Shown here piece after piece: positions 9,227 through 43,408 of a DNA stretch of 64,000 nt. Source of the stretch: Nodosilinea sp. FACHB-131 (GTDB lineage: Bacteria > Cyanobacteriota > Cyanobacteriia > Phormidesmidales > Phormidesmidaceae); the NCBI RefSeq assembly GCF_014695395.1, contig NZ_JACJOF010000010.1:62001-126000 (forward strand). The letters are read 5' to 3'. The notes below the pieces were generated by a model. That model was not told the origin of the DNA and did not search any database. It saw only the letters and a program-made list of their open reading frames with translations. The number at the start of each line of letters is the position of its first letter. Within the stretch, counting starts at the first letter, position 1. Both the position numbers and the translations under genes were made by a program.

Positions 9227-10396
9227 TTTAGACGCCCGAAACAGCAAATATAAACCAATCGCCAATCCCAGCAGCGTCGGCAGCCAGGCCGACATAAACG
9301 GCGACAGCACCCCTACCTCGCCCATGGCGTTGGTGATAAACGACAGCAAGTAGTAGCCAAAAATAATCACAATGCTGATGCCAAAGCTGGTGGCGCGGCT
9401 GGTGCGCTGAGGCAGCACTCCGATGGAGGCCCCTACCAGGCCAAACACCACGCACACGAAGGGCAAAGCATACTTCTGCATAATTCGAATTTGCCAGCGG
9501 CGAATCATCTTTTCGTCACCGCTCTGGCGCACCAGCTCTAGCTGCTGGGTGGCCTCGGCAATGTTCATCTCGGTGTCGTTTTTGGTGCGGCCCGCCAGAT
9601 CTAAGGGCGTGCGGGGCAGCTGTAGCTCCTGGGTTTCAAAGGTGATGATATTGCGGAAGGACCCATCGGGGGCAACCACGTAGATGGTGCCGTTGTAGAA
9701 GGTCCAGGCGTTGCTCTCCACATCCCAGTTAGCTGACTCGGCACTGACCACCTGGTTGAGCCCCTTTTGGGAAAAGTCGAGGATAGTCAACCCGTGCATG
9801 GTGGTACCGTCGAAGCGGCGGGCATAGAACTGGCGCTTCAGCTCCTGGGCGGCGGGGTCGTCGCTGGCGGGCTGGAACTCCTGGTAAAAAATATTGCGCT
9901 CCTGAAACGGGGGCCGCTCTGACTTCAGCGCCTGCTCCAGGGTAATGGCGGCTCGGTAGTTGGCAGCGGGGGTAATCAACTCATTGAATACAAAAGTGAG
10001 CCCTGTCACCAGCAGGCTGAGCACCACGGCAGGGGTAATGATGCGGCGAATGCTCACCCCCACCCCCCGCAGGGCAATCAGCTCGCTGTCGCTGGAGAAG
10101 CGGCTGTAGGTCATCATGGTGGCCAACAGCGTTGACATTGGAAAGGCCAGCACAATGAACTCAGGCAGCTTGAGCACGAAGATTTGCACCGCCAAGGTAA
10201 TGGCCAGGCCCGACTCGGTGATGCGGCGAATCAGCTCAAATAGCGCCCCAATGGATATACCAATAGAAGAGAACGCCCCCACCCCAAACAGGAAGGGCAT
10301 GGTCAGCTCTTTGGCGATGTAGCGATCCATCACCGTCAGCAGCGGGGTGCCGGGGCGCGAGCGCGGGGGCGTAAAGGTAGCAGGAGCTGAAGCCAT
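9224..10396 (-). CDS. LptF/LptG family LPS export permease (YjgP/YjgQ)
   Basis: A 390-residue inner-membrane permease of the LptB2FG ABC transporter that extracts lipopolysaccharide from the plasma membrane. Three N-terminal transmembrane helices (about residues 30-130, starting MDRYIAKELTMPFLFGVGAF), a periplasmic jelly-roll (about 150-300) and three C-terminal helices follow the LptF/G pattern. Cyanobacteria usually have one such gene, so F versus G cannot be assigned. It lies downstream of lptB on the same strand with a 110-bp gap. Confidence 0.93.
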   Translation of the reverse strand: MASAPATFTPPRSRPGTPLLTVMDRYIAKELTMPFLFGVGAFSSIGISIGALFELIRRITESGLAITLAVQIFVLKLPEFIVLAFPMSTLLATMMTYSRFSSDSELIALRGVGVSIRRIITPAVVLSLLVTGLTFVFNELITPAANYRAAITLEQALKSERPPFQERNIFYQEFQPASDDPAAQELKRQFYARRFDGTTMHGLTILDFSQKGLNQVVSAESANWDVESNAWTFYNGTIYVVAPDGSFRNIITFETQELQLPRTPLDLAGRTKNDTEMNIAEATQQLELVRQSGDEKMIRRWQIRIMQKYALPFVCVVFGLVGASIGVLPQRTSRATSFGISIVIIFGYYLLSFITNAMGEVGVLSPFMSAWLPTLLGLAIGLYLLFRASK

Positions 10397-10432
10397 GGGA
10401 TAACGTTAAGGGGCCTGACTCTACATTATCGG

Positions 10433-10477
10433 CAATGGGGCTGGGGATGCGTAGTCCCCGTTGCCCATTGAGTTTTT
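10433..10477. terminator. Hairpin between lptB and lptFG
   Basis: CAATGGG (10433-10439) pairs with CCCATTG (10464-10470), enclosing a further gggga/tcccc stem. On the plus strand it is followed by TTTTT (10473-10477), but both flanking genes run on the minus strand. It may limit antisense transcription or attenuate lptFG expression; its role is uncertain. Confidence 0.45.
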
Positions 10478-10506
10478 AAGAACCAGGCAGTCGGAGGGTG
10501 AGGCAG

Positions 10507-11316
10507 CTAAATAGCGAAGTCTTTGCCCAGGTAGTGCTCACGCACCAATGGATTGCTGGAGAGATCGTCAGCGTTGCCCGAGGCCAGAATTTGACCATCG
10601 CTCATGATGTAGGCGCGATCAATAATGCGCAGGGTTTCGCGCACGTTGTGATCGGTGATGAGGATACCCATGTCGCGATCGCGCAGCTTAGCCACAATCT
10701 CCTGAATTTCGTTAACGGCGATCGGGTCAACGCCAGCAAAGGGTTCATCCAAGAACAAAAAGCTGGGGCCTTCGGGGCCAGAGGCCAGAGAGCGGGCCAG
10801 TTCTGTACGCCGCCGTTCTCCCCCTGACACCTGAATGCCCAGGGTGTTGGCTACTTTCTCCAGGCGAAATTCCTTAAGCAGATCTTGGAGGCGATCGCCA
10901 TACTCCTCTGGGGGGACGCGTGTCTGCTGCATTACCAGCAAAATGTTGTCGGCTACCGACAGGTTGCGAAAGATGCTTGGTTCCTGGGCCAAGTAGCCAA
11001 TGCCTAGCCTCGCTCGCTGATGCATAGGCAGGTCAGTAATATCGATCTGGTCAAGGCAAACCTTGCCTGCATCGGGTCGCTCCAGGCCAGTCGCCATATA
11101 AAAGGTTGTGGTTTTACCTGCGCCGTTCGGCCCTAGCAGGCCAACAATCTCGCCCTGGGCCACTGATAAGCTAACCCGGTTTACCACCTGACGCTTGCCG
11201 TAGGTCTTTTGAACGTTGTCAAGTACGATTTTCAAGGGCGCGCCTGGGCCAGTAGAGGTTGATTGAGCTGCGTAAATTGTATCAAAGCTCTTCCCTACTC
11301 TAGGCGGCCCCCCCAT
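10507..11316 (-). CDS. lptB: LPS export ABC transporter ATP-binding protein
   Basis: Cytoplasmic ATPase that powers LPS extraction with LptFG. Walker A GLLGPNGAGKTT, signature VSGGERRRTELARSL and Walker B FLFLDEPFAGVDP are intact; the domain spans about residues 28-269. The open frame gives 269 residues, but family homology starts at LKIVLDNVQKTYG. A TTG at 11235 could be the true start, giving about 242 residues, the usual LptB length. The ATG at 11316 is the annotated alternative. Confidence 0.95.
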   Translation of the reverse strand: MGGPPRVGKSFDTIYAAQSTSTGPGAPLKIVLDNVQKTYGKRQVVNRVSLSVAQGEIVGLLGPNGAGKTTTFYMATGLERPDAGKVCLDQIDITDLPMHQRARLGIGYLAQEPSIFRNLSVADNILLVMQQTRVPPEEYGDRLQDLLKEFRLEKVANTLGIQVSGGERRRTELARSLASGPEGPSFLFLDEPFAGVDPIAVNEIQEIVAKLRDRDMGILITDHNVRETLRIIDRAYIMSDGQILASGNADDLSSNPLVREHYLGKDFAI

Positions 11317-36162: not shown

Positions 36163-37068
36163 ATGGATGACAAGGCCTACATTCTAATTCCGGTGCACAA
36201 CCGCAGGGCAATTACCCTGAGCTGTTTGCAGAATCTCGATCGCAACGGCGACCTGACACGCCATCGGGTAGTTGTAATCGACGACGGCTCCACCGATGGT
36301 ACCGGAGCAGCGATCGCCGCCAATTTCCCCACCGTAACTGTGCTGGCGGGCGACGGCAACCTGTGGTGGACGGGGGCGATTCGCTTGGGAATGGAGTATG
36401 CGATCGCCCAGGGCGCAAACTATATTATCTGGCTCAACGACGACTGCCGCCTCGCCCCCGGCACCTTGAATGGATTTGTGCAGTTTTGCAGCGATCATCC
36501 TAGCGCTATCGTTGGGGCCCAGGGGTTTGAGCAGGATGACCGCGATCGCCTCTCCTTTGGCGGCAAGCGCAAGACCTGGCAGGGCTACCGCTTTTTGTCG
36601 CTGCCCCCCGGTCAAACGGTACCCTGCGACCTGCTTAGCGGCAATTTGGTCTGCATACTAAGGGCTGTAGTGGATGCAATCGGCTATCCCGATGTGGTTG
36701 TCAGCCCTCACTATGGCGGTGACTCGCTGTACCTACTGCGCGCCCAAAAGGCCGGATTTCAGCTCTTTGTCGATAGCCGCTATCCAGTCTTTAACCAGGC
36801 CGCCGAGGCGCGGCTCTGCCCCGCCGACTGGCTAATGGCCCCTGGCGACCCTTGGCAGCTGGTGCGGCTGGCCCTTAACCCCTACTCGGGGCTAAGCTGG
36901 CGACTGTGGTGGCGGCTCAACTGGTTAGCCTACGGACCTTGGGGAATGGTGATGTTCCTCAAAAAATACCTCTCCATTCTCCCCATTACCCTGCTGCGGC
37001 TGCTGCCCGTCGCTACCCGCCAGCGGCTGTTTCGGCCGGGACAGGTTTCCTCCAACCAGCCCACATGA
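36163..37068 (+). CDS. Glycosyltransferase family 2 (rhamnosyl/galactofuranosyl type)
   Basis: A 301-residue GT-A enzyme. AYILIPVHNRRAITLSCLQNL, VVIDDGSTDGTGAAIAANFP and WWTGAIRLGMEYAIAQGANYIIWLNDDCRL (donor and metal-binding LNDD) resemble the GT2 subgroup of rhamnosyltransferases (WsaE/RfbN-like). The ATG at 36163 is 8 bp after the GT4 stop. Hydrophobic C-terminal stretches may give membrane association. Confidence 0.9.
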   Translation: MDDKAYILIPVHNRRAITLSCLQNLDRNGDLTRHRVVVIDDGSTDGTGAAIAANFPTVTVLAGDGNLWWTGAIRLGMEYAIAQGANYIIWLNDDCRLAPGTLNGFVQFCSDHPSAIVGAQGFEQDDRDRLSFGGKRKTWQGYRFLSLPPGQTVPCDLLSGNLVCILRAVVDAIGYPDVVVSPHYGGDSLYLLRAQKAGFQLFVDSRYPVFNQAAEARLCPADWLMAPGDPWQLVRLALNPYSGLSWRLWWRLNWLAYGPWGMVMFLKKYLSILPITLLRLLPVATRQRLFRPGQVSSNQPT

Positions 37069-37078
37069 GGGACTATCC

Positions 37079-37999
37079 ATGGCTAAATTACCTACCCTGA
37101 GTGTGGTCATCACCTGCTACCGCGAAGGCGACCTGCTGCTGGAGGCAGTGGAAAGCGTGCGCCAGCAGACCCAGCCGCCCCTAGAGATTGTCATTGTCAA
37201 CGATGCCTCGCCGAGCGATCGCACCAATCAGATTTGTCGCCAGCTAGAGGCTGAGCCGGATATTACTTTAGTGTGGCAGACCGTCAACGGCGGTCCCTCA
37301 GTGGCGCGCAACGCTGGGTTCACCGCTGCCCAGGGGGAGATCCTGGTGCCCCTCGATGCCGATGACCTGCTGCCTGTCGACGCCCTAAGCCACATTCAAC
37401 AGGCGTTTTTAGATCATCCCGACGCCGGGTTTATCTACGGCAGCTATCTGTGCCAGCGCCATCCTGGCGACACCCGCGTGGTCAAAGCAGAGCCCATCTC
37501 ACTGAATTCTCTGCTGCGGGCCAGGCGATTTTCGCTCAGCACCAACTGGACGCTAATTGGCACCGCTCCGTTGCGTAAATCGCTGTGGGAGGCGGTGGGC
37601 CACAGCGACCCACAACTCGGTGCCGAAGACTTGCACGACCTGGAGTTTTGGGTACGGGCCATGGCCTTGCCATGCGGCTATTACGGCACCCCAGCAGTGA
37701 TTTACATCTGGCGTAAATACCTGGGTAGCAACAGCCGCAAAGTTAGCCCGATGTCGTGGTATCGCGTGGCCCAAAAGCACTTTGAGGTCTATCGCCAAAA
37801 TGGGTTGGAATACCGAGCCCACGAACTGCTGCTGCTGGGCAGTAAGTGGAGTAATCAAGTGGAGGAAATTCGCCGTCATCGTCGTGCTCTGCTCACCTGT
37901 GTTACTCACGGAAACTTTCAGCTCTCGTCGCTGATGGCTCTGACAATACCCGCTGCTTTATTTCAGCCCATGGCTCAACTGGCGAAGCGATTTCGCTGA
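37079..37999 (+). CDS. Glycosyltransferase family 2
   Basis: A 306-residue GT-A enzyme, last of the glycan locus. Motifs are LSVVITCYREGDLLLEAVESVRQQT, IVIVNDASPSDRT, GGPSVARNAGF and VPLDADDLLP (DxD). RHPGDTRVVKAEPISLNSLLRARRFSL and the EDLHDLEFWVRAM acceptor-side helix follow. The ATG at 37079 is 11 bp after the previous gene. Confidence 0.92.
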   Translation: MAKLPTLSVVITCYREGDLLLEAVESVRQQTQPPLEIVIVNDASPSDRTNQICRQLEAEPDITLVWQTVNGGPSVARNAGFTAAQGEILVPLDADDLLPVDALSHIQQAFLDHPDAGFIYGSYLCQRHPGDTRVVKAEPISLNSLLRARRFSLSTNWTLIGTAPLRKSLWEAVGHSDPQLGAEDLHDLEFWVRAMALPCGYYGTPAVIYIWRKYLGSNSRKVSPMSWYRVAQKHFEVYRQNGLEYRAHELLLLGSKWSNQVEEIRRHRRALLTCVTHGNFQLSSLMALTIPAALFQPMAQLAKRFR

Positions 38000-38266
38000 G
38001 ACTTATAGCAAACCTCTGAGAGACTTGTGCCAAACCTCCGATCCCAGACCTGTTTGAATATTCTCCTTTTGTAGAAGCACGGTAGGTTCTGTGTATACAA
38101 AGGCCGCGCATAAAAGCGGAATATACGCACAACTACTCCGTCAATAATTCAGTAGTTTTACAGTAGAAATAATTAGCTTCATTCAAGCTTCACGTAGCAT
38201 TTGGAACCTTAACGGCATCAGTAGGGGTCTATTAAAGTGACTCCTTTGCCTATGGATTACACAACA

Positions 38267-38650
38267 ATGAAACAGCGACATGGGGCGTTTAGTCTATTAG
38301 GAGCAACGGCTATTAGCACGCTGGCGCTACCTGTTTTTGCCAACACTGCCACTCAGCAAACTGGCACACAGTCTGCAACTATTGATGGCAGCAATAACCA
38401 AGTGATTCAGGTTATTAATCAGGTCAATATTAGCCATCCTGGCCTGGGTCGAGGTCTAGGCAACAACGATCGCCGGGGCACGGTACAGGGCACTGTGCAA
38501 GACAGTTCCCAGAGCGCCACTGTTGATGGCAACGGCAATAGCGTCTACCAAGAAACCAATCAAATCAATCAGCAGTCATCGGGCCGCGCCGAACCAGGGC
38601 GGGGCAATGGCCGAGGCCAACAGCGAGGACACGATCGCGATCGCAACTGA
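38267..38650 (+). CDS. Small secreted Q/N-repeat protein, curlin-like motif (copy 1)
   Basis: A 127-residue protein from the ATG at 38267 (MKQRHGAF...); upstream ATG 38252 and GTG 38237 are in frame alternatives. The signal peptide covers about 1-26 (cleavage near VFA-NTA). The mature part carries the motif QSATxDGxxNxVxQxxNQxN twice, about residues 34-54 and 81-101, differing at few positions. A basic Gly/Arg/Asn-rich tail (about 107-127) follows. The Gln and Asn spacing recalls curli-subunit repeats (QxGxxNxAxxxQ) and beta-solenoids. The gene has its own spacer from the glycan locus. I do not recognise a named family. Confidence 0.75.
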   Translation: MKQRHGAFSLLGATAISTLALPVFANTATQQTGTQSATIDGSNNQVIQVINQVNISHPGLGRGLGNNDRRGTVQGTVQDSSQSATVDGNGNSVYQETNQINQQSSGRAEPGRGNGRGQQRGHDRDRN

Positions 38651-39209
38651 TTAAACTGCTTTTCAGCTAGCTCCATAGACCTCCTCAGCAATTTTAGTAG
38701 TTGTCAAAGGCGTTGGAAAGATTCCCCCTAGCCCCTGTTTACTCAAGGGGAACAGCATAAGTTTCTGACTGCGGGGGCAGGGGGATCTGACCTACTCCTT
38801 GACTTATCTCACTCGGTCAAGAAGCTCGACTTGCGATCGCTTTTTAGTGCTGTTGTAGAAAGCCTGAAACGGAAAAGCAAAGGGATCTGCAACTTACACC
38901 CGCAAATCACCAGTATTTTTCCAAATCCTCAGGCTTTCTAATAATAAAATTAAATAGCTTTTTCCTCCCTGAATTAATGTTAATTCTAGGAGAATTTTGC
39001 GTTTCTAGATTTTTTATTAGTTATAAAATCACAAAACTTTATTTTTTATTTTCCGGAACCTTTGCGTAATTCTACGGGTCATAAGGGGTGTGAATCGATG
39101 AAAATGGATGCTAATTAAGAAGCATAAAAAACCGCTCTTAAAAATGAATCCTTAATAGTTGAATTCACAAATTCACTCATTTGCACAACTAATCGTTGAG
39201 GACGTTTCA
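38651..39209. other. AT-rich intergenic region between the two Q/N-repeat genes, 559 bp
   Basis: Contains complementary runs near 38725-38738 (ccccctagcccc) and 38777-38788 (gggggcaggggga), a common cyanobacterial intergenic hairpin type. It also has an 11-bp inverted pair agaaagcctga (38857-38867)/tcaggctttct (38929-38939). From about 38930 to 39060 it is strongly AT-rich, a plausible promoter zone for the next gene. No coding potential. Confidence 0.6.
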
Positions 39210-39581
39210 ATGTTGAAGCACATCTCTACTTTGGGTCTACTGGGTTTTGCTGCTCTGGGCTTTGTGGCCATGCCTGCCAGCGCCGACACCGCCGTCGTGC
39301 AGCAGGGCACCCAAGATATCTATATTCAAGGGAATGGCAACGCTACGGTGCAGCGCAGCCAGCAGGTTAACCGGGTTGAAACCCGTGGCCCTGCTGGTCG
39401 CCAGGTAGAAAGCACGGGCATTGTGCAAGACATCTACCAGACCGGCACTGTGGTGGGTGACGACAACGCTGCTTACCAAGAGAGCAACCAGGTCAACGTT
39501 ATTCGCGAAAGCCGTCCTGACAATCGTGGTCACGGCCGGGGTCATGGCCGCGGCGGTGCCCGTATTGACGTTCGGAACTAA
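39210..39581 (+). CDS. Small secreted Q/N-repeat protein, curlin-like motif (copy 2)
   Basis: A 123-residue paralogue of the gene at 38267. The ATG at 39210 is preceded by TTGAGGAC; the longer frame from 39159 would mask the signal peptide. The signal peptide is about 1-25 (AMPASA-DTA). Two copies of the motif are present: TQDIYIQGNGNATVQRSQQV plus Asn, and GTVVGDDNAAYQESNQVN. The tail GHGRGHGRGGARIDVRN is again Gly/Arg/His-rich. A strong terminator follows at 39590-39642. Extracellular or periplasmic fibre or matrix function is an inference from the motif. Confidence 0.8.
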   Translation: MLKHISTLGLLGFAALGFVAMPASADTAVVQQGTQDIYIQGNGNATVQRSQQVNRVETRGPAGRQVESTGIVQDIYQTGTVVGDDNAAYQESNQVNVIRESRPDNRGHGRGHGRGGARIDVRN

Positions 39582-39589
39582 TCCTTGAA

Positions 39590-39642
39590 GGAGCCACCGC
39601 TCGCAGAGTCTTATCTGTGGGCGGTGGCTCCGCCGTATTTTT
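39590..39642 (+). terminator. Rho-independent terminator
   Basis: ggagccaccgc (39590-39600) and gcggtggctcc (39621-39631) form a perfect 11-bp GC-rich stem, followed by gccgtaTTTTT (to 39642). It lies 8 bp after the second Q/N-repeat gene and 24 bp before the next start, so the following three genes may have their own promoter or depend on read-through. Confidence 0.8.
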
Positions 39643-39665
39643 CCTGCTATTGCAAGGAGACGACC

Positions 39666-39998
39666 ATGATGATTTCAACTTTGAGGGTGGGCTTGGTGGG
39701 TACGATTGCCCTCGCCGCCCTAGCCCCCGCTGCGATCGCTAGCTCGATATCTATTAACACCGACCGGGTGCAGCTCCAGGTGGGCAACAACGGGCAGGTC
39801 TACATCAGAACCCTAGCCGACAGCCCGCTAAATCGGTCCCGTCCGGCGATCGCCCCCCAGGCCAACTCACCGCTGCCCAGGGCCAACTTTGCCCCCGGCT
39901 GCACTGCGCGATCGCAGAGTTCCCATGCCACTCGATCGACGCCGGGGGGCAACGTGGTCTATAGCGAAAACCGCAGCACCACGCAGGTGTGCCAGTAG
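39666..39998 (+). CDS. Small secreted protein, unknown function
   Basis: A 110-residue protein with signal peptide (about 1-24, ALAPAAIAS-S) from ATG 39666, preceded by AAGGAGA (39653-39659); a second ATG lies 3 nt downstream. The mature region holds SINTDRVQLQVGNNGQVYIRT, then a Pro/Ala/Ser-rich stretch and a C-terminal pair of cysteines (GC and VCQ) that may form a disulfide. It shares the NNGQV-type words with its neighbours. No named family. Confidence 0.75.
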   Translation: MMISTLRVGLVGTIALAALAPAAIASSISINTDRVQLQVGNNGQVYIRTLADSPLNRSRPAIAPQANSPLPRANFAPGCTARSQSSHATRSTPGGNVVYSENRSTTQVCQ

Positions 39999-40037
39999 CC
40001 TGGGCTTTCCGTCAAACCCCTATCCCCTATCGTAACT

Positions 40038-40409
40038 ATGATTAAACCTCAGCATCTTCTGGGGCTCCTCTGTGCTGGAGCCCTAGTGTCGTTTGCCCCA
40101 GAGGCCTCTGCCCAGTGCGTAGTTGCCGATGTAGCCATTCAGGCCGCCATTCACGGTGGCGACCAGCCGGCCGAGCAGGTCAACGATGTGACCATCGATG
40201 CCGCCGGCCCCTGCGTGGGCAACACCAGCGTCAGCACCAGCCGCCAAATTCAGGTGGGGGGCACCGGCGAGGTGCGCCAGACCCGTCAGAGTCGCCATCA
40301 ACTTAGCAGCTCTGAGCGGCCCAGCCAGGGGGTCTCTGGCCCTACCGTGGCGGTGCCTGTCAATGTACAGGTCGATGTGTATAATCCCGCTGAACGCCTG
40401 CGGCGGTAG
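40038..40409 (+). CDS. Small secreted protein, unknown function
   Basis: A 123-residue protein with signal peptide (about 1-25, APEASA-QCV). Two cysteines (QCVVADV and GPCVGNT) could pair. The middle VSTSRQIQVGGTGEVRQTRQSRH has alternating polar/hydrophobic residues like the neighbouring proteins. A Ser/Pro-rich region and a VAVPVNVQVDVYNP segment follow. It lies 39 bp after the preceding gene on the same strand. No named family. Confidence 0.72.
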   Translation: MIKPQHLLGLLCAGALVSFAPEASAQCVVADVAIQAAIHGGDQPAEQVNDVTIDAAGPCVGNTSVSTSRQIQVGGTGEVRQTRQSRHQLSSSERPSQGVSGPTVAVPVNVQVDVYNPAERLRR

Positions 40410-40599
40410 CGAACGATTATTTGGAAAGGGGAACCTGCTGTCCAGAGACGGTGTCTATCTAGCCTGACTTGGTCAGGGCACCTGCGCTGGTTTTTGAAGG
40501 CTGTCTCGCCTATTTCTAGCCGTGCTACCCTGGGCCGAGCGCCCGCTGCTATGGCTAGCCCTGGTATGCCTTTCCCCTTTTCCTGGAGATGTCATTGTT

Positions 40600-41088
40600 A
40601 TGAAACATCCATCAGCCCTTGGGGTTTCCCTATTGATCTTGGTGGCGGTTACCGCAGCGGTGGGGCCTTCCTCAGCCAACGGTAATCAGTCGTTTGGGGT
40701 CTCCCATCAGGCTCTCAGCGCCATCTTATCTAGGGCCAGCGCAAAGGATGTTATGGATTCATACCAACGTCAAACCAACACGATTAGCCTAGATCGCGCC
40801 AATTTAGATGAGCCCCATCTGCTCTCGGTGAGCATACCAACGGGTTCATCTTTACAGGGCTATATTGAAATCGATGGTCACACTCGGGTGCCCCTAGGTG
40901 CCAATTCAGAATTTATCGACGTTAGCCCCTATCTGAGCGAGGCGATTACCCGCGTCACCATCGTAGGCAGCTACTCACCCCCCTCAGCCTCGGTGGCGAT
41001 CGCCTTCAACGGTCCCAACACGGTGGTGCAGCAGCAGACCGGCGGCACCGGCCGCGTCAACTACCAGCTAAATTTGCTGGTGCAGTAG
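40600..41088 (+). CDS. Small secreted protein, unknown function
   Basis: A 162-residue protein from ATG 40600, preceded by CTGGAGAT (40583-40590); the longer frame from 40522 is not used. The signal peptide is about 1-27 (GPSSANG). The mature part has alternating strand patterns (LLSVSIPTGSSLQGYIEIDGH, RVTIVGSYSPPSASVAIAF) and a C-terminal NTVVQQQTGGTGRVNYQLN that echoes the Q/N-rich words of the cluster. Last of five consecutive secreted proteins; convergent with comEC only 7 bp away. Confidence 0.75.
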   Translation: MKHPSALGVSLLILVAVTAAVGPSSANGNQSFGVSHQALSAILSRASAKDVMDSYQRQTNTISLDRANLDEPHLLSVSIPTGSSLQGYIEIDGHTRVPLGANSEFIDVSPYLSEAITRVTIVGSYSPPSASVAIAFNGPNTVVQQQTGGTGRVNYQLNLLVQ

Positions 41089-41095
41089 CGGTTCT

Positions 41096-43408
41096 TTATT
41101 CCAGTGAGGCAATAGGGTGCGATCGCGTCGCCAGGTAGGCTTGGTAGCCCTGGCGGGGGCTCCAGGTAACCGCTCCGTCGCGCTCGGTGCAGAAAACCTG
41201 AATGCCGCGATCGCGCAACAGCTGCTCGGTGGTCTCATCGATGCGGGGGGCAGAGGCGATCGCCACCTGTGCCCCAATTGCGGTAATCACCTCTGCCGTC
41301 AGGGCTTCTCCATGCCACCACAGCACCTCGCTTTGCAGCCCAGGGTGCGCCGCAATCCAGGGCATTTGCTGCTCGGGCGATAGCTTGGGCAACAACAGCC
41401 AGTTTTGCCGATTCAGCAGATCTAACCGCAGCCCTCGAGCGCCATCCTGCAAGTACTGCACTCGCTGGCGGCTCACCGGCTGCACCTGGCCTGCGGTCAG
41501 TGGGTGAAACTGGTTGACCGCCGGGGCCTCTGCCAGAGCAGAACTAGCTCCGTAGAAATTGTGAATTGGGGTTTTGTCGGCAATGGTGCGCCAGTTGTCG
41601 CGATCGCTGTCGTCACCATGAACCGCGCTAGTGAGCTGGTTAATGCCCGCCTGCCGCAGAAAGGGCACCACGGTGTAAAAGGCAGTTTTGTCGGTGCCGC
41701 TGTTGATCACCAATGGGGAACGCCCGTCCTGCACCACCATCACTGCATCGCTGCCCGCCGCCAGCACCGTTACTTGGGAGAGGGTTGCGCCCCGATATAG
41801 CAACGGCCCCAGGGCCACCACCACAATCAGCAGGGCGACCAGCCCTCGCCTTCGCACCGCGCCCCAGCCCCAAAGCCAAAAGAGCCCATAAAGGCCAAAC
41901 ATCTGCAACAGGGAAATGTGGCCGGTGGCTAGGGCACTGCCCGGCAGGCCCACTTCCCACCGCACCAGGGCAATGAGGAGCTGGGTTGGCAACCACAACG
42001 GCCAGGCTAGCAAGCTCCCCAGCCAGGGCCAGACCGCTGCCGCCAATCCACTGGCCATGCCGCCCAGGCTGATCACCGTCACCAGGGGCGTGGTCACAAT
42101 ATTCAACAAGATGCTGTAGGTGGTGAGGGTGTTGAAGTAATAGAACGCTAAGGGAATTGTCCACAGGTAGGCAGCCAGGGGCACCGCCGCCACCGCCGCC
42201 AGCGTGGTCGGCAGCCACTCCAGCTTCTCTGTAATGGGCGTCACCGCCACCATTAGCCCAAACGTAGCCATGACGCTGAGGCGAAAGCCTAGGTCGTCAA
42301 TCCAGGTTGGGTTAACCAGCAGCAGCAGGGTGACCGCCAGCAGCAAACAGCCCAGGGGTTTGATGCTGCGCTCCAGGGCAATGCCCGCCAACACCCCAGC
42401 CCCCATGACCGCCGCTCGCATGACGCTGGGCTGTACGCCGGTCAGCAGCACAAACACCACCAGCGCTGTTCCCCCGGCGATGACCTTGGTCGTCACCGGG
42501 TAGGGCAGCCGGGAGGCGATCGCCCGATAGCCCATGATCGCCAGCACCACCCCCAAAATCAGCGACACCTGAAACCCGCTAGCCGCCAAGACGTGCGCCA
42601 TGCCAGCTTGCATAAACATATCTTGAATGTCGTAGGGCACATTCACCGCCTGGCGGCCCAGGGCCATGGCGCTGACCAAAGGCCCGATTGGACTACCCAA
42701 TCGTTCTGCTTGGGCGCGAGCAATTCGCTGCCGCAGTCGCCACAGCGCCCACCGGGGCGGCGACTGCCCCTGATCGGGCAGAATGCGATCGCCCGTAAAC
42801 CCCGCAAAACAGCGCTGGCTAGCTAAATACTGACGAAAATTAAACGCATTGGGATTTTTAGGTAGCGCTGGCTCGTAGAGCTTGCCTTGGATCTGCACCC
42901 GCTGCCCCGGAAACAGGCCCTCGCTTAGCTCCACTGGCACGGTGACGTAGAGCCGGCCGCGAGTGATCCCCGGGGGACCGAGGGGATTGTTTTGAGCATC
43001 CAACCGGCGCACCTGGTTAGTAGTCAGCCAAAACTGCTCTCGACCATTGCGGGTCAGGCGAGGCAGCGTTTGCACATTGCCCCAGACGATTTGCTGCGCG
43101 CCAGCCGCCTCGCCCTGGCTCAGCAGGGAACTGATATCGAGCGGGCCAGGGACCGGGTAGCGCAGGCCGTAGTTAAGGGCAGCTAGGAAGGCGATCGCCC
43201 CAGCCCCCAGCCACAGAGCTGCCGTTGGCCCGCGCCGCCAGCGACGGGGCAGTATCAGAGCCGACAAACCTGCCGCACCCAGCGCCCCGATGCCAGCAAC
43301 AGCTACCCCAGCCCAAAGGTTCAACCCCAGATGACGCACCCAAAGACTGACCCAAAGTAACCCAATGCAGTACGCACTGGCCCACAGCAATCCCGCAATC
43401 CTGCCCAT
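41096..43408 (-). CDS. comEC: ComEC/Rec2 family DNA-uptake channel
   Basis: A 770-residue polytopic inner-membrane protein for single-stranded DNA import in natural transformation. N-terminal helices and the OB-like DUF4131 domain (about 1-200; LYVTVPVELSEGLFPGQRVQIQGKLYEP) precede the competence domain (about 230-500; HVLAASGFQVSLILGVVLA, GVQPSVMRAAVMGAGVLAGI). The C-terminal domain occupies the metallo-beta-lactamase position but lacks the HxDxDH signature: where HPDADH is expected it reads HGDDSDRDN. Either the nuclease is lost or it is supplied elsewhere. It faces the SPOR gene divergently. Confidence 0.92.
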   Translation of the reverse strand: MGRIAGLLWASAYCIGLLWVSLWVRHLGLNLWAGVAVAGIGALGAAGLSALILPRRWRRGPTAALWLGAGAIAFLAALNYGLRYPVPGPLDISSLLSQGEAAGAQQIVWGNVQTLPRLTRNGREQFWLTTNQVRRLDAQNNPLGPPGITRGRLYVTVPVELSEGLFPGQRVQIQGKLYEPALPKNPNAFNFRQYLASQRCFAGFTGDRILPDQGQSPPRWALWRLRQRIARAQAERLGSPIGPLVSAMALGRQAVNVPYDIQDMFMQAGMAHVLAASGFQVSLILGVVLAIMGYRAIASRLPYPVTTKVIAGGTALVVFVLLTGVQPSVMRAAVMGAGVLAGIALERSIKPLGCLLLAVTLLLLVNPTWIDDLGFRLSVMATFGLMVAVTPITEKLEWLPTTLAAVAAVPLAAYLWTIPLAFYYFNTLTTYSILLNIVTTPLVTVISLGGMASGLAAAVWPWLGSLLAWPLWLPTQLLIALVRWEVGLPGSALATGHISLLQMFGLYGLFWLWGWGAVRRRGLVALLIVVVALGPLLYRGATLSQVTVLAAGSDAVMVVQDGRSPLVINSGTDKTAFYTVVPFLRQAGINQLTSAVHGDDSDRDNWRTIADKTPIHNFYGASSALAEAPAVNQFHPLTAGQVQPVSRQRVQYLQDGARGLRLDLLNRQNWLLLPKLSPEQQMPWIAAHPGLQSEVLWWHGEALTAEVITAIGAQVAIASAPRIDETTEQLLRDRGIQVFCTERDGAVTWSPRQGYQAYLATRSHPIASLE

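Follow-up and report, generated by a model that had tools for sequence, protein, structure and literature searches.

A conserved five-gene cluster of small secreted-type proteins in Cyanobacteriia that may encode an undescribed kind of extracellular fibre system

A cluster of five consecutive genes (g1–g5) was analysed in a 64,000-nucleotide stretch of DNA, hereafter the window, from Nodosilinea sp. FACHB-131 (NCBI RefSeq assembly GCF_014695395.1, contig NZ_JACJOF010000010.1, positions 62,001 to 126,000), whose genome (G000) comprises 6.16 Mb in 45 contigs. The cluster is a conserved gene unit, CUR-(CUR)-g3-g4-g5, in which CUR is the family of the paralogues g1 and g2. Its sequences point, at what we judge to be roughly even confidence, to a cyanobacterial extracellular structural polymer, that is, a fibre or matrix of stacked beta-arches for which g3–g5 would be accessory. 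Paralogous repeat proteins that are conserved on one face and kept with small secreted partners across several families of the class are most simply read as a secreted structural polymer. By g5 identity, the nearest named records are from Nodosilinea, Phormidium tenue, Leptolyngbya and Tildeniella (99–91%). The five genes lie on the plus strand at 38267–41088 of the window, exactly where the initial annotation had placed them, with the following features:

38267..38650, plus strand: g1, first paralogue of the CUR family, with two Q/N repeats of beta-arch type between a signal peptide, judged by eye, and an R/G/D-rich tail
38342..38434, plus strand: repeat 1 of g1, residues ~26–56, with a GSNN turn at 41–44, from the sequence; strands 30–40 and 45–54 in a low-confidence model
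38486..38578, plus strand: repeat 2 of g1, residues ~74–104, with a GNGN turn at 88–91, from the sequence; strands 77–87 and 92–101 in a low-confidence model
39210..39581, plus strand: g2, second paralogue of the CUR family, with a ratio of non-synonymous to synonymous substitution rates (dN/dS) of 0.02–0.16 against ten relatives
39590..39631, plus strand: hairpin of 18 pairs in the g2–g3 interval, resembling a terminator in the window, its pairing kept through base changes in relatives
39666..39998, plus strand: g3 family, a small protein of secreted type whose two cysteines are invariant in 15/15 aligned members
40038..40409, plus strand: g4 family, also a small protein of secreted type, its two cysteines invariant in 20/20 aligned members; this family marks the cluster best
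40600..41088, plus strand: g5 family, a protein of secreted type for which a beta-sandwich of nine strands is confidently predicted at residues 58–162

The evidence begins with the repeat shared by g1 and g2. A motif had been reported twice in each protein, and this was borne out by half-versus-half scores of 83 for g1 (2000 shuffles, 28.1 +/- 5.5, maximum 59) and 55 for g2 (2000 shuffles, 23.9 +/- 4.9, maximum 50), which beat all shuffles, and by a family consensus that contains the motif, VQxSxQxAx[VI]xG[DN][GN]NxVxQxSxQxN. This consensus was derived from 85 repeat instances (~51 effective) in 40 of the 41 CUR members gathered by similarity. Instances were chosen by the turn glycine, an asparagine at +3 and one of Q+7 or Q+11, with the other columns left free, and a few of them fall in the tails. 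Two or more copies of G-x2-N-x3-Q-x3-Q were found in 29/41 members, whereas shuffles gave 0.00 on average and 1 at most. Conservation alternates on both strands (1.48 vs 0.88 bits before the turn and 1.72 vs 0.56 after it), with conserved glutamines at -10, -6, +7 and +11 relative to the glycine of the turn. A curli-like pairing of the arms would bring Q-6 opposite Q+7, and Q-10 opposite Q+11. The repeat is ~27 residues long and the proteins span 89–154 residues in the alignment used, with R/G/D-rich tails that vary in length. By motif count, two repeats were found in 28/41 members, three or four in seven (some of these counts stemming from the tails) and one or none in six.

An AlphaFold2 model of g1 placed strands at residues 30–40, 45–54, 77–87 and 92–101, flanking both G-x-x-N turns. 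For the beta-rich repeat structure that fold prediction had been suggested to check, this strand placement is a hint only, the model being of low confidence, with a predicted local distance difference test (pLDDT) score of 52.8 and a predicted template modelling (pTM) score of 0.25. A comparison of the CUR profile with the sequences of solved structures yielded 47 weak matches (best E-value, 0.13), mostly to stretches of influenza haemagglutinin, which were taken as chance. These features also bear on a somewhat unlikely alternative, namely that the products are non-polymerising secreted matrix or sheath proteins, whose repeats would bind polysaccharide or metal and whose charged tails would crosslink the sheath. 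The R/G/D-rich tails of variable length, a g1 model without a confident fold and the glycan locus that adjoins the cluster in the window would all suit such proteins, whereas the one-face alternating Q/N/V conservation in both strands is what a packed beta-arch needs, the subunit-plus-helpers layout is conserved, and glycan genes are not constant neighbours in the loci listed.

Evidence for the structural polymer also comes from the proteins as a set. All five N-termini were assessed by eye and carry a hydrophobic leader followed by an A-x-A-type site, in agreement with the signal peptides previously claimed. The start of g1 is likely at 38267, judging by the upstream extension, which carries a stop codon in 3/12 relatives. 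The paralogues g1 and g2 share 40% identity over residues 7–128 of the longer g1 reading and were the only CUR members found in the window genome (third match, E 0.97). Their tails had been described as basic and Arg/Gly-rich, a description that holds for g2, whereas that of g1 is of mixed charge in the window and has Asp runs in ~10/12 relatives. Scans of g1–g5 against Pfam and NCBIfam gave nothing above chance, and so brought up no characterised family. The same held for the 41 CUR members (a few at E ~1e-3 to scattered unrelated families, with no single family matching more than 8/41) and for 23 g5 members, and in Pfam for 20 g4 and 15 g3 members. All five genes have dN/dS values of 0.02–0.28 where measurable, indicative of purifying selection, and g2 lies below g1 in 6/6 comparisons valid for both. 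The values for g1 leave out three loci (L036, L045 and L046) in which the reading began at the upstream stop, and those against L047 were saturated for g1, g3 and g5.

The repeats had been said to resemble those of curli subunits, a claim that stands for the G-x-x-N turn, which is kept, but not for the curlin family, which is not matched, or for the glutamines, whose positions differ. In curli, a core-facing N-x-hydrophobic-x-hydrophobic-x-Q pattern on both arms and an X-G-X-X arc are described, with four or more repeats per subunit (PMC10192328; here and below, statements from cited papers refer to the portions of their text available to us). The likeness extends to two homologous small secreted repeat subunits, alternating conserved residues and Q/N-rich composition (PMC10192328). 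Unlike curli, CUR repeats have longer arms and glutamines at -10, -6, +7 and +11 rather than at -2 and +9 (positions derived from the published motif, PMC10192328), and CUR proteins have mostly two repeats, no match to PF07012, CsgG, CsgE or CsgF, and other neighbouring genes.

The curlin repeat PF07012 was found in 0/368 cyanobacterial genomes and not in the window genome; it did not match g1 or g2 at E<=10 and was not among the matches listed for the 41 CUR members at E<=1 (25 of 27 families). CsgG, CsgE and CsgF, reported as not visible near the cluster, gave no match when the search was extended to the whole window genome, and a control search finds each of them in Escherichia coli. Two or more copies of Q-x-G-x2-N occur in 3/41 CUR members, with shuffles averaging 0.41 and reaching 3. 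Alignment of the CUR profile with the single sequences of E. coli K-12 CsgA and CsgB in hhalign yielded probabilities of 1.5% and 1.9%, respectively, and that of the g5 profile with E. coli CsgC, 0.45%. CsgC has no entry among the g5 fold matches listed, a list that excludes nothing. With neither the curlin repeat, nor Csg homology, nor CsgG, CsgE or CsgF found, canonical curli was ruled out. A divergent form of that system would account for the small secreted-type Q/N/G-rich repeat subunits, the two paralogues and the G-x-x-N turn, but we consider it highly improbable in view of PF07012 being found in none of the genomes and not listed for any CUR member, CsgA/CsgB profile probabilities under 2%, a Q-x-G-x-x-N count at a level that shuffles reach, and no CsgG, CsgE or CsgF match in the genome.

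Like the Fap system, in which FapB and FapC occur with FapA, FapD, FapE and FapF, the cluster encodes imperfect repeats with linkers and a G-x-g-N element, and its two homologous subunits are clustered with other genes (PMC12392863). Unlike in Fap, the repeat has ~27 rather than 38–39 residues, the glutamines lie at +7/+11 rather than at +4/+5 (q/Q), and the proteins (89–154 residues) are shorter than the Fap lengths given (PMC12392863). No Fap model was among the Pfam and NCBIfam matches listed for CUR members, a comparison in which no Fap-specific profile was used. EbfG1–4 of Synechococcus elongatus are likewise small matrix-related cyanobacterial proteins from one operon, and EbfG1–3 are reported to form amyloid (PMC9981879). 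Compared by description, they differ in having a double-glycine secretion motif and a transporter of the C39-peptidase family (PMC9981879), as opposed to the Sec-type signals seen by eye here; no double-glycine leader was recognised by eye in the five N-termini. The cluster was not described in the titles and abstract starts found, in a search of open-licence literature that left preprints and subscription journals mostly outside and some result lists partial. Within that scope and that of Pfam and NCBIfam, the statement that no named system has this set still holds.

Conservation of the cluster was assessed by class-wide searches that scored the best ~ten candidates per genome, so that the counts are lower bounds. 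At E<=0.001, the CUR family was found in at least 36/388 Cyanobacteriia genomes (24/159 genera), g4 in at least 43/388 (25 genera) and g5 in at least 43/388 (21 genera). The proposed association of the five genes was retained: in genomes with both CUR and g4, the two lie on one strand within 3 kb in 33/33, with the nearest CUR gene upstream in 29, and among the 33 genomes that share g4 and g5, the latter is downstream of g4 within 564 bases in 32, being located away from it in the remaining one (G015). Hypergeometric P values, computed with genomes treated as independent, were 1.6e-35 for CUR with g4 and 3.6e-30 for g4 with g5, and are inflated by kinship among the sampled genomes. Since the g4 and g5 profiles were partly built from loci found through CUR, adjacency in unused genomes is a fairer test. 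Among 16 out-of-genus genomes unused for the g4 profile, g4 is preceded on its strand by a CUR gene, either directly or with only g3 intervening, in 15, although some of the CUR matches are weak (for example, E 9e-6 and 4e-5 in G191 and G261), and in the sixteenth (G114) the contig begins just before g4. No CUR gene was detected at the first threshold in 10/43 g4 genomes. A wider profile found one beside g4 in six of them (G158, G162, G191, G261, G221 and G272), and the remaining four comprise two contig edges (G005 and G114) and two g4 remnants.

Closer to the window, g5 was found in 25/57 relatives and in 22/26 within the genus. Of 23 g5 loci compared by BLAST, 11 have all five genes in the same order, two are cut by contig ends, and one from another genus (L051) has all five families, with g3 found by profile. 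Overall, clusters occur in ten family groups (f1, f6, f15, f23, f24, f26, f31, f32, f35 and f37). A phylum-wide draw of 386 genomes, given with no breakdown by class, yielded g4 in 21, all of the same class.

Several loci depart from the usual layout. In two of the 33 genomes with g4 and g5 (G008 and G011), only the last 35 g4 residues are left. There, g1–g3 and most of g4 are lost and an intact g5 stays, as if by one deletion (L034 in G008; L033 in G011, 10370–10703), and both g5 proteins are 98–99% identical to that of the window. Contig C376 of G017 (28,534 bases) holds the cluster twice, inverted near both ends and with identical scores, perhaps an assembly artefact. Five tandem CUR-like genes, three of them weakly matched, stand beside one g4 or g5 in L155 (G273), and two nearly identical ones are found in L165 (G320), a pattern that suggests repeated local duplication of the CUR subunit gene in some genomes. 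A plasmid search gave one g4 match and none for g2. On plasmid pP880101 of Rippkaea orientalis PCC 8801 (L172/L173), an identical 97-residue CUR protein is encoded three times in tandem, alongside a protein of 358 residues whose N-terminus is CUR-like; caspase-domain, sigma-factor and DUF1822 genes come next. The cluster members on this plasmid are annotated as 'hypothetical protein'.

Among the partners, the g5 model has 88/162 residues at pLDDT 90 or more. Its fold search (best Foldseek E, 6.6e-3; best Z, 6.8, for MmpS5) stayed below the tool's meaningful level, and the matches would support only a beta-sandwich of immunoglobulin-like arrangement with no clear relative. Four matches of g5 to sequences of solved structures (best E, 0.55) were taken as chance. 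The GGTG/NNGQV and Q/N-rich words said to be reused in g3–g5 are present, but no kinship between the families was shown. Profile comparisons, which covered CUR versus g4 and g4 versus g3, aligned signal peptides only, and common ancestry of either pair was therefore rejected.

In 12/12 g2–g3 intervals scanned (the window and 11 loci), there is a hairpin within 50 bases that reaches -21 kcal/mol or stronger, and the folding z-scores of these intervals range from -2.4 to -8.5 relative to shuffles. In nine alignable intervals, 8/23 predicted pairs, all in the main hairpin, changed on both sides with the pairing kept, which corresponds to few events because several of the changes separate the same two sequence groups. 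Behind the hairpin, a T-run is present in the window and in three relatives and lacking from the five others, so that the term 'terminator' fits part of the set only. It is plausible that the hairpin raises the amount of g2 relative to g3–g5. A short hairpin upstream of g3 (39640–39660) pairs a Shine-Dalgarno-like AAGGAG with TCCT and might limit g3 translation; its pairs show one-sided changes only in nine aligned relatives. Rfam gave no match at gathering scores in 37000–42000.

In the proposed mechanism, the five proteins would leave the cytoplasm by the general Sec route, and the CUR paralogues g1 and g2 would be the structural subunits. Each repeat would form a strand-turn-strand arch around the G-x-x-N turn, with the conserved glutamines and small residues on one strand face, and arches would stack, both inside one subunit and from one subunit to the next, to build a beta-rich fibre or matrix at the surface of the cell. 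The bulk subunit would probably be g2, which evolves more slowly and is followed by the strong hairpin, and the other paralogue would serve as nucleator or co-subunit. Products g3 and g4, with two cysteines each, and g5, with its predicted beta-sandwich, may act as periplasmic or outer-membrane helpers, i.e., as chaperone, anchor or cap. Because none of the genes in the conserved unit was recognised as a dedicated outer-membrane channel, export would proceed via a housekeeping or unrecognised channel. Stacking into fibres, the partner roles and the export route are steps that we infer. More tentatively, and with less than even confidence, the cluster could represent a third, cyanobacteria-specific class of bacterial functional amyloid, defined by long-armed beta-arches, facing glutamine ladders, two secreted paralogues, three dedicated helpers and no dedicated outer-membrane channel.

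Several findings weigh against a structural polymer served by g3–g5. The g1 model is of low confidence and gave no match in Foldseek, and CUR proteins have only two repeats in 28/41 members and one or none in six, versus four or more in curli subunits. CUR occurs without detected g4 in 3/36 genomes (G130, G262 and G031, where the contig ends), and g5 occurs with CUR-like genes but without detected g4 in G052, G320 and G079. Nine of the 23 BLAST loci hold g5 without adjoining CUR genes, two of these genomes (G015 and G029) having CUR elsewhere together with g3 and g4, and in five Nodosilinea-group genomes (L033, L034, L040, L041 and L043) g5 stands beside a ComEC-like gene; g5 may therefore have a separate job. 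Strong hairpins are also found in some longer g1–g2 and g4–g5 intervals (to -32.0 and -34.8 kcal/mol), so that hairpin strength alone is no mark of the g2–g3 interval. No outer-membrane exporter was found as a constant neighbour, with one outer-membrane efflux protein beside the G052 cluster only. On balance, the earlier proposal of a possible new fibre or matrix system retains its basis in an unnamed conserved set of secreted-type proteins, a curlin-like repeat and no curli export genes found, but fibre or amyloid formation itself is something we infer.

Flanking genes vary between lineages, which leaves the glycan locus outside the unit. The surface-glycan locus described as adjoining the cluster is its neighbour in the window but not in the distant relatives listed, and a functional tie to either this locus or ComEC was rejected as unsupported, since the flanks differ in the distant loci listed. 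A sixth secreted-type family, of ~150–190 residues with a conserved NTEN...NTLDASNVTV...PGR stretch and an end that looks coiled-coil-like by eye, was found close to the cluster in 8/61 loci (L117, L152, L153, L154, L157, L158, L159 and L161); the one member scanned gave no match in Pfam, and that of L117 matched the CUR profile weakly. A CHASE2 histidine kinase was found near the cluster in 3/61 loci (genomes G030 and G031 of one family and G052 of another), a sigma factor with a DUF1822 protein in 3/61, and caspase-domain matches in 7/61. Possible control genes near the cluster in L051, L100 and L164 comprise a CHASE2 histidine kinase together with a response regulator and a small protein of secreted type. 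Caspase systems with an extracytoplasmic function sigma factor and DUF1822 are reported in many neighbourhoods of their own (PMC8195603), so that their link to the cluster may be incidental. The caspase-domain, sigma-factor, DUF1822, CHASE2-kinase and response-regulator genes, which stand beside few clusters only, were rejected as cluster parts.

Such neighbours matter for a further alternative, in which the products would have no structural role and would instead be stress or envelope proteins of the periplasm or outer membrane, or else small secreted peptides such as competition factors. The small size of the proteins, their Sec-type signals, the tandem copies, one plasmid-borne cluster and the regulators that adjoin some clusters would be in keeping with it; we nevertheless regard it as unlikely, given that no family of any kind was matched above chance in Pfam and NCBIfam and that the genes are under strong purifying selection rather than rapid change.

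To our knowledge, little is known about the proteins that hold cyanobacterial mats and sheaths together beyond type IV pili and EbfG proteins. The present work provides a defined conserved gene set that is spread over ten family groups within the class sampled and whose subunits and helpers can be tested, and this set may constitute an undescribed kind of extracellular fibre system. If fibres are indeed made, it would stand beside curli and Fap as a parallel system that has a different zipper register and no recognised channel of its own, and would bear on how such fibres evolve and how they exit the cell.

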